Below, piece after piece: positions 2,528 through 6,478 of a stretch of 64,000 bases of DNA (the stretch's first letter is position 1; every line of letters begins with the position of its first letter). Under the pieces are notes generated by a model, which was given only the letters and a program-made list of their open reading frames with translations, did no database searches and was not told the origin of the DNA. The DNA is from Emcibacter sp. SYSU 3D8 (lineage in GTDB: Bacteria > Pseudomonadota > Alphaproteobacteria > SMXS01). The position numbers and the translations under genes are program-made. Location of the stretch: positions 806,001 through 870,000 of the forward strand of contig NZ_JBBYXK010000002.1 of NCBI RefSeq assembly GCF_039655875.1, in the 5' to 3' direction.

Positions 2528-4042
2528 ATGACCGCTCATATCAGCACCGTCGCATTCTTCGGCATCGAGGCGAAGCTGGTCGATGTGCAGGTGCGGATGA
2601 TGAGCGGGCTGCCCGCCTTCGCCGTGGTCGGCCTGCCCGACAAGATGGTGGCCGAATCCCGCGAGCGGGTGCGCGGCGCATTGAGCGCCATCGGCCTCTC
2701 GCTCCCGCCCAAGCACATCACCGTCAACCTGGCGCCCGCCGACCTGCCCAAGGAAGGCAGCCATTTCGACCTGCCGATCGCCCTCGCCATGCTGGGCGCC
2801 ATGGGCGTGCTGCCGTCCGACGTGGCCGACCGGTATTGCGTGATGGGCGAGCTGGGACTCGATGGCTCGATCTCGACCGTCTCCGGCGTGCTGCCCGCCG
2901 CGCTCCGGGCGGGCAACGAGGGGCTGGGCCTGATCTGCCCGGCGGCCTGCGGGCCGGAAGCGGCGTGGGTCGGCACCGTCGAGGTGGTGGCCGCGCCCGA
3001 CCTCATATCGCTGGTCAACCATCTGAAGGGCACCCAGACCCTGGCGCCGCCCGAGCCCAGGCTGGCCGAGGCGCCGGTGTCGGTGCCCGACCTGCGCGAC
3101 ATCAAGGGGCAGGAGGCGGCCAAGCGCGCGCTCGAAGTGGCGGCGGCCGGCGGCCACAACCTGCTGATGGCCGGGCCGCCCGGCTCCGGCAAATCCATGC
3201 TGGCGGCGCGCCTGCCCGGCCTGCTGCCGCCGCTGTCGCCGGCCGAGGCGCTGGAGGTGTCGATGATCGCCTCCATCGCCGGTCAGCTCGACGGCGGCCG
3301 CATCTCGCGGGTCCGGCCGTTGCGCGCGCCGCACCATTCGGCGTCCATGCCGGCGCTGGTGGGCGGCGGCATCAGGGCCAAACCGGGCGAGGTGTCGCTT
3401 GCCCATAACGGCGTGCTGTTCCTTGATGAACTGCCGGAATTTCCGCGCCAGGTGCTCGATTCGCTGCGCCAGCCCATCGAAACCGGCCGCATCATGGTGG
3501 CCCGCGCCAACGCCCATGTGGAGTATCCTGCCCGGGTCCAGCTCATCGCCGCGATGAATCCGTGCAAGTGCGGCTACCTGGGCGATGCCCAGCTCGCCTG
3601 CAACCGCGCGCCCAGATGCGCCGTCGACTATCAGGGCCGGATCTCCGGCCCGCTCTATGACCGTATCGACCTGCAGATCGAGGTGCCGGCGGTGGCCGCC
3701 GCCGACCTGTCGCTGCCGCCGCCCGCCGAAGGCTCGGCCGAGGTGGCGCGGCGGGTCGCCGCCGCCCGCGAGGTGCAGACCGCACGCTACGAGGCGCTGG
3801 GCGCGCCGGTCCGCACCAACGCCCAGGCCGACGGCGAGGTGCTGGAAGCCGTCGCCGCCCCCGACGAACCCGGCCGCGCCCTGCTGACCCAGGCCGCCGA
3901 CAAGCTGCGGCTGTCGGCGCGCGGCTATCACCGGGTGCTGCGCGTGGCGCGGACGTTGGCGGATCTGTCCGGCGCCGCGAAGGTTGGCCGCACCCATATC
4001 GCCGAGGCGCTGTCCTACCGGCGGTTCACGGTGCAGCGGTAA
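2528..4042 (+). CDS. comM: YifB/ComM family Mg-chelatase-like AAA+ ATPase
   Basis: 504 residues, the normal length for the family. The N-terminal ChlI-like domain (about 1-170, with GLPAFAVVGLPDKMVAESRE) precedes the AAA+ core: Walker A GPPGSGKS near residue 216, Walker B FLDELPEF near 300, the family motif AAMNPCKCGYLG, and a C-terminal Mg_chelatase_C domain. In naturally transformable bacteria ComM is a hexameric helicase that drives branch migration during integration of transforming DNA, and the family is also common in non-competent species. The start at 2528 is where conserved sequence begins (MTAHISTVAFFG). Confidence 0.93.
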   Translation: MTAHISTVAFFGIEAKLVDVQVRMMSGLPAFAVVGLPDKMVAESRERVRGALSAIGLSLPPKHITVNLAPADLPKEGSHFDLPIALAMLGAMGVLPSDVADRYCVMGELGLDGSISTVSGVLPAALRAGNEGLGLICPAACGPEAAWVGTVEVVAAPDLISLVNHLKGTQTLAPPEPRLAEAPVSVPDLRDIKGQEAAKRALEVAAAGGHNLLMAGPPGSGKSMLAARLPGLLPPLSPAEALEVSMIASIAGQLDGGRISRVRPLRAPHHSASMPALVGGGIRAKPGEVSLAHNGVLFLDELPEFPRQVLDSLRQPIETGRIMVARANAHVEYPARVQLIAAMNPCKCGYLGDAQLACNRAPRCAVDYQGRISGPLYDRIDLQIEVPAVAAADLSLPPPAEGSAEVARRVAAAREVQTARYEALGAPVRTNAQADGEVLEAVAAPDEPGRALLTQAADKLRLSARGYHRVLRVARTLADLSGAAKVGRTHIAEALSYRRFTVQR

Positions 4043-4191
4043 GGCGGTGAGTCAGGTGCGGTGTCACCGTAATTCTGTCGTGCGGCGGCATGGCGGCGTG
4101 GCCGCGGCGCAGCTGGCAGGGCTCGTTTCGGTGGCGCTGGGCGCTGGGTTGACCTATCGTAAGGGCCATCGCAATCGAAGGGGGATGAAAC

Positions 4192-4485
4192 ATGCGCGAT
4201 TTTTCGAAAACAGCCGGGTTTGAGCTGCCTGCGGGTGTTCTCGACACGACGGACGCCAGGCCGCAGACCGGCAAGCCCGGCATGCCCGCCGGTATCCTCG
4301 ACACCACCGGCGCCACGCCGCAAACCGGCAAAGCTCCTGCCATGCCCGCCGGCATCCTGGACACCACCGATGCCAGGCCGCAGACCGGCAAGAGTCAGGG
4401 TCCGGTCGTTTTCGACCTGTCAAAGGCTGTCGTGCTCGACACCACCAAGGCCGCGCCGCTGGTGGGCAAGAACAGCAAGGCCTGA
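4192..4485 (+). CDS. Tandem-repeat peptide, putative multi-core RiPP precursor
   Basis: 97 residues with an 11-residue N-terminal segment (MRDFSKTAGFE) and then four repeats: LPAGVLDTTDARPQTGKPG (12-30), MPAGILDTTGATPQTGKAPA (31-50), MPAGILDTTDARPQTGKSQG (51-70) and a degenerate last unit containing VVLDTTKAAPLVGK (80-93). The consensus is (V/I)LDTT-x-A-x-P-(Q/L)-(T/V)-GK. Many codons in the repeats differ only at synonymous positions, which suggests the peptide itself is conserved. There is no signal peptide or membrane segment. A strong ribosome site (AAGGGGGATG) precedes the ATG. The next gene, 15 bp downstream on the same strand, looks like an alpha-ketoglutarate HExxH peptide hydroxylase, so I infer that this is its substrate, with the repeats as core peptides. 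I know of no established family for it. Confidence 0.6.
   Translation: MRDFSKTAGFELPAGVLDTTDARPQTGKPGMPAGILDTTGATPQTGKAPAMPAGILDTTDARPQTGKSQGPVVFDLSKAVVLDTTKAAPLVGKNSKA
4225..4401 (+). repeat. Three in-frame 57-60 bp tandem repeats inside the precursor gene
   Basis: Units at 4225-4281, 4282-4341 and 4342-4401 encode LPAGVLDTT..., MPAGILDTT... and MPAGILDTT...; a fourth, more diverged unit follows at 4402-4482. The DNA units have drifted at third positions (for example CTC/CTG, ACG/ACC, CAG/CAA, AAG/AAA) while the residues are kept. This is protein-level repetition, not a recent DNA slippage event. Confidence 0.9.
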
Positions 4486-4500
4486 CGCGAAAGCGCCGTC

Positions 4501-5490
4501 GTGGCTAAAGCGCCGCTACCGGAGCATTTATGCGCCCGGGTCGTGCCGGGTGCCGTTGGCGCGGTGCATGCCTTCTACCGCGGGCGGGTGCTGGCCAGCC
4601 TTGCGGCGCTGGTCGAGTCGGCCAGCCGGACCATTCCCGGCCACCAGGGCCTGACCGCGCGCCTTCCGGAGGATACGAGCGAGGCGCTGTCGCCCTACCT
4701 CTATTACCTGAACTACCGGCTGCTCGCCGCCATGAAGGCCGGCGACAGGGACGCGGTTTCCGACCTGCTGGACGGCTTTGCAGCCATGCCCGGGGCGGCG
4801 TTCCAGGCTGCCGGTCTGACCATCGACAATCTGCACGACCAGCCGTGGCACGCGTTGATGGCCCGCGACATGGTGGCCGACGACGGCGACGGCGCCGAGG
4901 TTTTCGCCGCCGCCCCGGCGCGCATCAAGGCCGCGAGGGGGCCCATCGTCGAAGCGCTGGCGCTGGTCGACCGCTGCCATCCGGCCATCGCCGCCGAAAT
5001 CCGGTCGCTGGTCTGCGCGATCACCCTGTTCGACGGCAAGGTCATTGGCGGCTCCACCGATGTGCGGGTGTTCGGCAACGTGTTCCTGCGCCTGCCGGAA
5101 CGGGGACAGGATCCGGTCGCCTATTATGCCGACCACCTGATCCACGAGGCCGGCCATCTCTATCTCAACGCGCTGATGGCGCACGACCCGCTGATCCTCA
5201 ACGATGACAGCCGCACCTATCCGGCGCCCACCCGCGCCGATCCCCGGCCGCTGTTCGGCATCCTCCACGCCACCTTTATCCTGGCGCGGCTGGAGGCCGC
5301 TTTCGCGACCATCGCCGCCGTCGCGCCCGATCCCTATGAGGCCAAGCTGGAGGCCGTCCGGAGTCAGTTCGCCCACGGCGTCGCCACCTTGCGTGCTCAC
5401 GGAAAGTTCACCGAACTTGGTGCATCCCTGCAGCAGCAATTCGAGGCGCTGGTCGATCCGCGCTATGCCCGTATGGCGGCGACGGTCTAG
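4501..5490 (+). CDS. HExxH-motif putative peptide beta-hydroxylase (alpha-KG-HExxH family)
   Basis: 329 residues. The signature lies in the C-terminal half: a SER/THR-rich approach (GGSTDVRVFGNVFLR, 183-197), the metal motif LIHEAGHLYLNAL with H215-E216-H219, then HDPLI, the arginine motif RADPRP (245-250) and a third candidate ligand in GILHATF (H256). That order (HExxH, dPL, R-x-D-x-RP, g-x-LH) is the arrangement of the HEXXH-motif peptide-modification family, whose characterised members are iron and 2-oxoglutarate dependent and beta-hydroxylate residues in RiPP precursors. The roughly 150 N-terminal residues are probably the peptide-binding part. The start is GTG at 4501; there is no earlier or nearby in-frame ATG. 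It follows the repeat-peptide gene by 15 bp, so the two are likely co-transcribed. A zinc protease is the alternative reading but would not explain the downstream motifs. Confidence 0.78.
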   Translation: MAKAPLPEHLCARVVPGAVGAVHAFYRGRVLASLAALVESASRTIPGHQGLTARLPEDTSEALSPYLYYLNYRLLAAMKAGDRDAVSDLLDGFAAMPGAAFQAAGLTIDNLHDQPWHALMARDMVADDGDGAEVFAAAPARIKAARGPIVEALALVDRCHPAIAAEIRSLVCAITLFDGKVIGGSTDVRVFGNVFLRLPERGQDPVAYYADHLIHEAGHLYLNALMAHDPLILNDDSRTYPAPTRADPRPLFGILHATFILARLEAAFATIAAVAPDPYEAKLEAVRSQFAHGVATLRAHGKFTELGASLQQQFEALVDPRYARMAATV

Positions 5491-5638
5491 TTTATGGAGC
5501 ATATCATATTATGGCAATAACCATAGCCAATATGTGGTTTGTCCATAAGATAGCCAATTAAATCAACCTTTTAAGACATAGTTCTTATCGAATAGATCAC
5601 TTCCGCTGTGCCCCGGCCACCGCGCGCTGCGTCTCGTC
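5491..5638. other. AT-rich gene-free island
   Basis: This stretch, especially 5494-5605, is far richer in A and T than its surroundings and encodes no believable gene. It contains a 9-bp direct repeat (ATAGCCAAT at 5523-5531 and 5550-5558). It lies between the end of the HExxH gene and a terminator belonging to the opposite-strand SDR, so neither neighbour needs a promoter here. It may be a scar of gene acquisition or an unrecognised regulatory or small RNA region. Confidence 0.5.
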
Positions 5639-5669
5639 AAAAAAATAGGGCGTCCCGAAGGACGCCCCA
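5639..5669 (-). terminator. Rho-independent terminator of the minus-strand SDR gene
   Basis: Read on the minus strand: GGGCGTCC, loop TTCG, GGACGCCC, then TATTTTTTT. It has an 8-bp perfect stem, a UUCG tetraloop and a U-tract, about 25 bases past the SDR stop codon at 5693. This is one of the clearest terminators in the window. Confidence 0.9.
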
Positions 5670-5692
5670 GTCTCCCCGTTGAACTGCTTGCC

Positions 5693-6478
5693 TTACGGCA
5701 TCAATTTGCCGCCGTTGAGCATGAAGGTCTGGCCGGTGATGTAGTCCGAGCCATGGCCGGCGAGGAACACGCATAGCGGCGCGCCGTGGACCAGCGGGTC
5801 GCCCAGGTAGCGCATGGGCAGCGCCTGCTCGAGGGCGGTGACGAATTCGGGGCGCGCCTTGCGCCAGTTCTCGAACGCGTCCGAGGCCAGCGTCGGGCTG
5901 ATGATGTTGACGTTGATGCCGAACTGGCCCCACTCGTTGGCGGCGGTGCGCGACACCGCGCGGATCGCTTCCTTGGCCATGTTGTAGGCGGTGTTGCCGG
6001 TGGTGCCCAGGATGCCCGAGGTGGACGAGAAGTTGATGATCTTGCCCCACTTCTTGTCCTTCATGATCGGGAATACGGCCTGCATGCCCCACAGGGTCGC
6101 CATGGCGCCGCTGTCGAAGGTGTAGCGGATTTCCGCGTCGGTCGAATCCTCGACGCCCACGAACACGGTCGAGCCTTGCGGCTTCTCCTTGGTGCCGAAG
6201 CCCTGGGCGTTGTTGACGATGATGTCGACGGTGCCGAAGGCCTTCACGGTCTCGTCGACCATGCGAAAGACCTGGTCGCGCTCGGACACGTCGACCACGA
6301 CGGGAATCGCCTCGCCGCCTTCGTCGCGGATCTGCTTCACCACCTCGTCGACGGTCGACTTGGTGCGTGAGGCGACGGCAACCTTGGCGCCTTCGCGGCC
6401 ATAGGCGATGGCGATGGCGCGGCCGATGCCGCGGCCGGCGCCGGTGACGATGGCGACTGTGCCTTCAAGCTGTTTCAT
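5693..6478 (-). CDS. SDR family NAD(P)-dependent oxidoreductase
   Basis: 261 residues of a classical short-chain dehydrogenase/reductase. The cofactor motif TGAGRGIG is at 12-19, NNAQ (in place of NNAG) at 89-92, catalytic Ser in FSSTSG near 151-154, and Tyr165/Lys169 in AYNMAKEA. Family members reduce or oxidise alcohol and ketone groups; the ending YITGQTFMLNGGKLMP is normal for the fold. The substrate is unknown. It is transcribed divergently from another SDR at 6665 with a 186-bp spacer, and it ends in a strong terminator. Confidence 0.85.
   Translation of the reverse strand: MKQLEGTVAIVTGAGRGIGRAIAIAYGREGAKVAVASRTKSTVDEVVKQIRDEGGEAIPVVVDVSERDQVFRMVDETVKAFGTVDIIVNNAQGFGTKEKPQGSTVFVGVEDSTDAEIRYTFDSGAMATLWGMQAVFPIMKDKKWGKIINFSSTSGILGTTGNTAYNMAKEAIRAVSRTAANEWGQFGINVNIISPTLASDAFENWRKARPEFVTALEQALPMRYLGDPLVHGAPLCVFLAGHGSDYITGQTFMLNGGKLMP

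Follow-up and report, generated by a model that had tools for sequence, protein, structure and literature searches.

Two forward-strand genes separated by 15 bp make up the locus described here (Table 1), which lies within a 64,000-nucleotide stretch of the Emcibacter sp. SYSU 3D8 genome (contig NZ_JBBYXK010000002.1; hereafter, the window). The upstream gene encodes a 97-residue peptide containing four units of the pattern (V/I)LDTTxAxP(Q/L)(T/V)GK, the first three of which are preceded by a PAG(V/I) segment, and a GGGGG stretch resembling a Shine–Dalgarno sequence is visible by eye ahead of its ATG. The downstream gene encodes an alpha-ketoglutarate (aKG)-HExxH enzyme in which H215, E216, and H219 form part of a HEAGH motif, accompanied by HDPLI, RADPRP, and GILHATF. 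A sequence-only reading of this DNA had described the four repeats, the spacing, and these motifs, all of which are borne out. By its sequence, the pair looks like a stripped-down locus for a ribosomally synthesized and post-translationally modified peptide (RiPP) with an amplified core.

Table 1. Features of the repeat peptide–HExxH enzyme locus, in window coordinates
Feature	Position	Strand	Remarks
Repeat peptide, proposed RiPP precursor with four cores	4192..4485	+	ATG start, 97 aa; related frame in G007
Possible leader/recognition segment MRDFSKTAGFEL	4192..4227	+	weak likeness to the DxxKxxGF leader of sister precursors
Core unit 1 VLDTTDARPQTGK	4237..4275	+	matches the 13-residue pattern
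Core unit 2 ILDTTGATPQTGK	4294..4332	+	matches the 13-residue pattern
Core unit 3 ILDTTDARPQTGK	4354..4392	+	matches the 13-residue pattern
Core unit 4 VLDTTKAAPLVGK, diverged	4432..4470	+	matches the 13-residue pattern
aKG-HExxH enzyme (TIGR04267)	4501..5490	+	GTG start, 329 aa; HExxH = residues 215–219

Family membership of the enzyme is firmly supported at the sequence level, as the sequence-only reading had anticipated: the protein scores 92.5 bits against the NCBIfam hidden Markov model TIGR04267 (aKG-HExxH peptide beta-hydroxylase; cut-off 40) and is the sole match in its own genome. Among 14 control genomes, one contains any match to this model and none a match above the cut-off. In an alignment of ten sequences, including the window enzyme, H215, E216, H219, R249, P250, and H256 are invariant. 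The profile built from these ten sequences finds PDB entries 8s5f (ChlH; E 1.1e-19) and 22nu (E 6.1e-11), and the match to 8s5f brings the HExxH, P-x-R-x-D-x-R-P, and LHAxFV segments into register. Furthermore, the four best PDB matches of the predicted enzyme model are chains of 8s5f (E 2.3e-5 to 1.5e-4; best probability 1.00), followed by SjiH (22ob; E 0.033). The model search thus points, with moderate confidence, to the fold of the crystallized ChlB HExxH domain.

Searched against NCBIfam and Pfam (E up to 1) and against PHROGs and PADLOC (E up to 0.1), the repeat peptide gives no match. Its DNA forms a tandem array with a period of 60 nt, 2.8 copies, and 81% match. Selection on the peptide is indicated because units 1–3 differ mainly at synonymous sites, the pairwise proportions of synonymous differences (pS, 0.39–0.50) exceeding those of non-synonymous differences (pN, 0.03–0.10). 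The three comparisons that involve the diverged unit 4 give pS of 0.22–0.36 and pN of 0.25–0.31, with no clear synonymous excess.

The precursor gene and the maturase-family gene are conserved together in G000 (the window's own genome) and G007, and related pairs exist in G297 and G1023. In the genus-mate G007, the enzyme is 78% identical to that of the window, with an enzyme dN/dS of 0.30; the frame upstream of it, TTGASPQTGKPQVGFELPASVLDTTGAAPQTGKPTVDFELPAAMLDTTGAAPQTGKNISKA, is cut by the contig end and has linkers different from those of the window peptide. A peptide search of 60 relatives gave five matches at E up to 0.01, of which two (G000 and G007) are convincing. Both adjoin an HExxH enzyme gene, and the objection foreseen by the sequence-only reading, that homologues of the peptide might never occur next to such an enzyme, does not hold. 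The three weak matches (G009, G003, and G042; E 0.004–0.009) were rejected: two contain a stop codon and one lies inside a 1948-aa frame; TIGR04267 finds nothing in G009 or G003, and G042 falls outside the 11 class genomes that have one. They are treated as noise, which is not proved, and carry little weight either way.

The nearest precursor type and the nearest enzymes outside the window's genus are found in G297 and G1023, small-genome relatives of the window's class that carry related precursors beside their HExxH enzymes. The G297 precursor, MSQSQTTQAATQNSVKPAVFELDSDMLKATPATVQGYSKPQ, has a single unit, FELDSDMLKATPATVQ, and the G1023 precursor has two tandem units, FEVDQ(N/S)LLQATPATVQYGPDE (FEVDQxLLQATPATVQ x2), compared with four in the window. 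These loci also differ from the window in that the HExxH stop codon is followed 2–3 nt later by a YcaO gene (match to PF02624 above the cut-off, with E 9.8e-13 and 1.8e-7). YcaO is also matched in five of 14 control genomes, E. coli included; hence, it is the adjacency of YcaO to precursor and HExxH gene, not YcaO itself, that marks both as RiPP loci. In G297 and G1023, precursor and enzyme are separated by a terminator-like hairpin (in the latter with the ATG at L064:1501 taken as the precursor start), while shuffled sequences average 0.3; such a hairpin would be expected if the precursor were needed in excess. A 17-column core profile, built from the window and G007 units alone, was scanned over both strands of 215 kb from 44 other loci (a set that excludes 10 loci of the window's own type and 11 duplicates). 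The G297 unit ranks second and the G1023 units eighth and 24th, and all three closely precede an HExxH gene; the remaining ranks are positions with no visible tie to an HExxH precursor. Motif counts over 268 kb used patterns drawn after the peptides had been seen and are not evidence; the core-profile scan is their independent counterpart.

Upstream of many other HExxH enzymes lies a different kind of precursor, its leader DxxKLLGF-like and its cores LGAKVGGK-like and sometimes repeated. Loci of this sister type (G001 and G002, from within the window's own family and genus, as well as G504, G957, and others) resemble the window in having a small precursor directly upstream and cores that are often repeated. 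However, they differ in core and leader, in a separate enzyme group, and in an ATP-grasp-like or cyanophycin-synthetase-like neighbor. Within the locus DNA, 10 of the 11 loci of this group have a homologue either of the ATP-grasp-like protein from G001 or of a cyanophycin-synthetase-like protein, the exception being L035; the label "ATP-grasp-like" was given by eye, the G001 neighbor having no Pfam match and its paralogue a sub-threshold one. L018 was placed in this type by its VGK cores, its start departing from the leader pattern. In the two Xenorhabdus plasmid loci whose leader is similar, the locus DNA contains neither homologue. In L055 (G957; about 2571–3090, minus strand), two tandem precursor frames, both starting with MREIRLDQSKLYGFRILPE and carrying LGAKVGGK-type cores, precede a single HExxH enzyme gene, and an ATP-grasp-like neighbor is present.

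In the enzyme tree, 11 enzymes paired with DxxKLLGF-type precursors form one group, whereas those of the window, G007, two Myxococcales, G297, and G1023 form another, separate from the main DxxKLLGF-type group (Shimodaira–Hasegawa-like approximate likelihood ratio test, SH-aLRT, of 87 in a quick tree without bootstrap). When three peptide-type labels are placed on 21 tree rows (19 others being unlabelled), two changes suffice, whereas every one of 200 shuffles needs more. Peptide type thus changes together with enzyme type, which is the best evidence here that the two are partners. By eye, one Myxococcales record also shows a possible 24-aa ORF, MGFEYDLSPPHEAARPSPGPGNAR, overlapping the enzyme start.

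These observations are best accounted for by a two-gene RiPP-type locus, a reading held to be probable, in which a four-core precursor is modified by an aKG-HExxH oxygenase acting repeatedly along it. The upstream gene would supply the precursor with its four tandem cores, which would serve as the substrate, and binding of the enzyme would take place at the N-terminus of the peptide or at the PAG(V/I) segments before units 1–3. Metal and alpha-ketoglutarate would be held as in the ChlB HExxH domain, and an Fe(II)/O2/alpha-ketoglutarate oxidation would attack a C–H bond in each unit. The most likely product is a beta-hydroxylation, one event per unit, adding one hydroxyl (+16 Da) in or next to L-x-T-T-x-A-x-P-Q. 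Two features would make such a locus unusual: the pair stands alone and the precursor has four cores. The minimal RiPP locus of the sequence-only reading is supported in its enzyme family and RiPP-like pairing; its isolation is not, related precursors being present in two other lineages, both with YcaO.

The Asp or Thr of LDTT had been proposed as the natural candidate sites, and this choice is not settled. The Thr side chain already carries a beta-oxygen. Among the nine complete aligned units from four genomes, Asp9 is present in six and Leu8 in all nine, and over 10 aligned units, Thr11 (the second Thr) and Ala13 are kept in every one and Gln16 and Gly18 in nine each. Because Asp is less conserved, Gln or Leu would be at least as good a guess, if the relatives undergo the same step. 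The residues that known aKG-HExxH members are described as hydroxylating are His, Asp, Phe, Gln, or Pro (PMC13060819). However, the chemistry is not necessarily hydroxylation alone: PflC and PosC of the same family hydroxylate Gln and also cleave the backbone oxidatively, and PflC shows proteolysis as well when the leader is absent (PMC12636437).

Several points weigh against the two-gene RiPP reading. The predicted enzyme model draws on an alignment of four sequences; its quality is moderate (predicted local distance difference test, pLDDT, 63.2; predicted template modeling score, pTM, 0.59), and it superposes on 8s5f with a TM-score of about 0.42 and a root-mean-square deviation of about 12. 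The SH-aLRT support lies under the usual 95. In the core scan, chance positions outrank or intermix with the true units, and the first rank falls in L029, a locus fetched for its weak likeness to the peptide. A convincing repeat peptide occurs in just two of the 60 genomes searched, and the hairpin scan between precursor and enzyme gave none in the window, L044, or L045. No leader protease or exporter is seen beside the pair, a genome-wide search for them not having been made. In addition, a leader common to the window peptide and the sister type is no more than suggested by sequence. A leader profile trained without the window gives its peptide 5.7 bits, the best of 335 window ATG ORFs, a score reached in 460 of 20000 whole-peptide shuffles and in 108 of 20000 when the shuffling is confined to the first 25 residues, while the training leaders score 19–34. 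A leader common to all precursor types, tempting by eye when the segment in Table 1 is set against DxxKLLGFxL, was rejected on that score and those shuffles.

Among other explanations, the enzyme may cut its substrate oxidatively or hydrolytically, turning a polyprotein into peptides of about 20 residues, with or without hydroxylation. The precedent of PflC and PosC favors this, as do units that end in GK and a pair with no protease gene seen by eye beside it; but the ARMD motif is missing from the window peptide and the single-unit G297 precursor leaves nothing to separate, and cleavage is regarded as unlikely. It is quite unlikely that the peptide is instead a disordered repeat protein with a role of its own, in binding or structure, while the enzyme acts on another substrate and their adjacency is incidental. 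The pair has no leader protease, exporter, or second maturase in view beside it, and it appears dispensable, because four of the six other same-genus genomes (G003–G006, one of them 78% complete) have neither a TIGR04267 gene nor a convincing peptide match. Against this, the two genes stay adjacent in both peptide genomes, as do their counterparts in G297 and G1023, and peptide type tracks enzyme type on the tree.

It is very improbable that the two genes are left over from, or belong to, a larger pathway whose other genes lie elsewhere (for instance, with an ATP-grasp or YcaO step lost or at a distance). Sister loci do carry ATP-grasp-like or cyanophycin-synthetase-like genes, and G297 and G1023 have one YcaO match each. 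However, G000 and G007 contain no YcaO match and no homologue of the G001 ATP-grasp-like protein, and neither the ATP-grasp-like nor the cyanophycin-synthetase-like type matches the 64-kb window, the latter having been sought only in locus DNA and the window, not in whole genomes. Finally, the repeat ORF is hardly credible as an untranslated by-product of GC-rich repetitive DNA: other frames across the array are open too, but the synonymous differences among units 1–3, the frame kept in G007 with different linkers, and the Shine–Dalgarno-like stretch seen by eye argue otherwise.

The profiled neighbors of the pair are yifB (TIGR00368), two short-chain dehydrogenases, and a weak polyketide-cyclase-like protein. 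In agreement with the sequence-only reading, no radical S-adenosylmethionine (SAM), lanthipeptide enzyme, protease, or exporter gene is evident beside the pair, part of the nearby ORFs having been profiled and part judged by eye. As regards radical SAM, the enzyme matches TIGR04267 alone in NCBIfam and the adjacent genes are yifB and a short-chain dehydrogenase, a genome-wide search for radical SAM not having been made. The interval between yifB and the dehydrogenase (window 4042–5693) behaves as a variable spot, because its contents differ among G002, G003, and G004, the dehydrogenase match of G004 being in two pieces; G005, G006, and G007 do not resolve it. A phage origin was rejected (no viral_contigs relative, best PHROG E 0.017, no PADLOC match at E up to 0.1), and so was a plasmid origin, all nine matching plasmid records being under 60% identical and covering at most 61% of the enzyme. 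Elsewhere in the window, at 1963–2316 on the minus strand, a 117-residue protein combines a signal-like N-terminus with 19 His and 18 Tyr.

TIGR04267 is matched in four of 10 genomes of the family (and order) and in 11 of 385 class genomes, and the ten-sequence profile in 13 of 398 phylum genomes. A six-sequence profile, which itself contained G680 and G297, matches 8/300, 2/18, and 6/10 genomes in the orders of G680, G297, and G290, respectively. Among 33 HExxH loci that lack a radical SAM partner (five loci in addition to 28 rows of one tree clade), a candidate precursor lies upstream in 27, as judged by eye and not blind; some of these are doubtful, namely L007, L046, L059, and L083. The six without a candidate are L006 (truncated at a contig edge), L021, L036, L056, L060, and L084.

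ORFs of 21 aa (MKKIDLTKLFSNKNALTTTGV, MIKIDLKKVFSSKNKLLNTYV, and two more) lie 3–68 nt upstream of HExxH genes in L088 (1033–1098), L087, L086, and L020, all from small-genome alphaproteobacteria; they have 8–13 of 21 positions in common pairwise, show Shine–Dalgarno-like stretches in both of the two inspected, and are possibly very short RiPP precursors. In L022 (G369; 2705–3004, minus strand), a 99-aa ORF with two DPLKLVGNARLxLHHHMAPAT copies lies upstream of a divergent 549-aa HExxH protein. In L039 (G468) and L041 (G662), 102-aa ORFs with a signal-like start precede HExxH genes, their tails being His-rich and Cys-containing, respectively. In L044, L045, and L046, from Pantoea/Xenorhabdus plasmids, the HExxH gene has an upstream peptide of 23–28 aa, which in L046 is a frame without an ATG start, and a major facilitator superfamily-type transporter downstream, annotated in L044 and L046 and recognized by eye in L045. 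L-x-[TA]-T was rejected as a general core, being present in six of 13 precursors (including two of the four 21-aa peptides), with single copies often unremarkable against shuffles.

Tentatively, there may be a large class of minimal RiPP systems built on HExxH oxygenases that have no radical SAM partner, spread over Alphaproteobacteria, other Pseudomonadota, and Myxococcota; in these, a short precursor ORF (of 21 aa in several alphaproteobacteria with small genomes, of 97 aa with four cores at the window locus) lies immediately upstream and one oxygenase is possibly the whole maturation pathway. The window locus would then represent core amplification around a common L-x-[TA]-T element. If two genes suffice, the pair would be among the smallest RiPP systems imaginable and would carry its own test of multi-site processing: with four cores per chain, compared with one or two in relatives, mass alone would show in what order, in which direction, and how completely the units are oxidized. 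That enzyme and peptide change in step inside one genus would provide natural swap partners for locating the recognition element, and candidate precursor genes as short as 21 codons may well be missed by ordinary annotation.

Literature searches, with subscription journals mostly outside reach, turned up no account of this pair. At the window locus, no sign was seen of the feature checked for each of four known kinds of RiPP system: an ATP-grasp ligase for graspetides, a YcaO protein for YcaO-type products (linear azol(in)e-containing peptides, thioamides), a fused or adjacent radical SAM domain for the ChlB type, and a Gln run with an ARMD C-terminus for the PflC/PosC type. The closest structural relative is the ChlB HExxH domain (PDB 8s5f), reportedly crystallized by Morishita et al. 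2024, which belongs to the same family and, by profile and model search, probably has the same fold. ChlB represents the radical SAM–HExxH cyclophane RiPPs, whereas no radical SAM gene is seen beside the window enzyme. PesO (nitrilobacillin; PMC13060819) and BpmH (biphenomycin-like; PMC12636437) are likewise aKG-HExxH enzymes of RiPP pathways. PesO has a multinuclear non-heme iron-dependent oxidative enzyme (MNIO) and a nitrile-forming enzyme as partners (PMC13060819), whereas neither kind of partner is seen next to the window pair, and BpmH falls in a similarity cluster other than that of ChlB (PMC12636437). In PflC and PosC of Pseudomonas, a separate aKG-HExxH enzyme acts on several residues of one precursor in a cluster without a protease (PMC12636437), which resembles the arrangement proposed here. 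However, the leader of their precursor is of the nitrile hydratase leader peptide (NHLP) type, and the precursor also contains a Gln run and ends in ARMD; no such leader is seen in the 97-aa window peptide, and neither the Gln run nor the ARMD C-terminus is present in it. Their cluster also includes an MNIO–nitroreductase and transporters, none of which is seen at the window locus.
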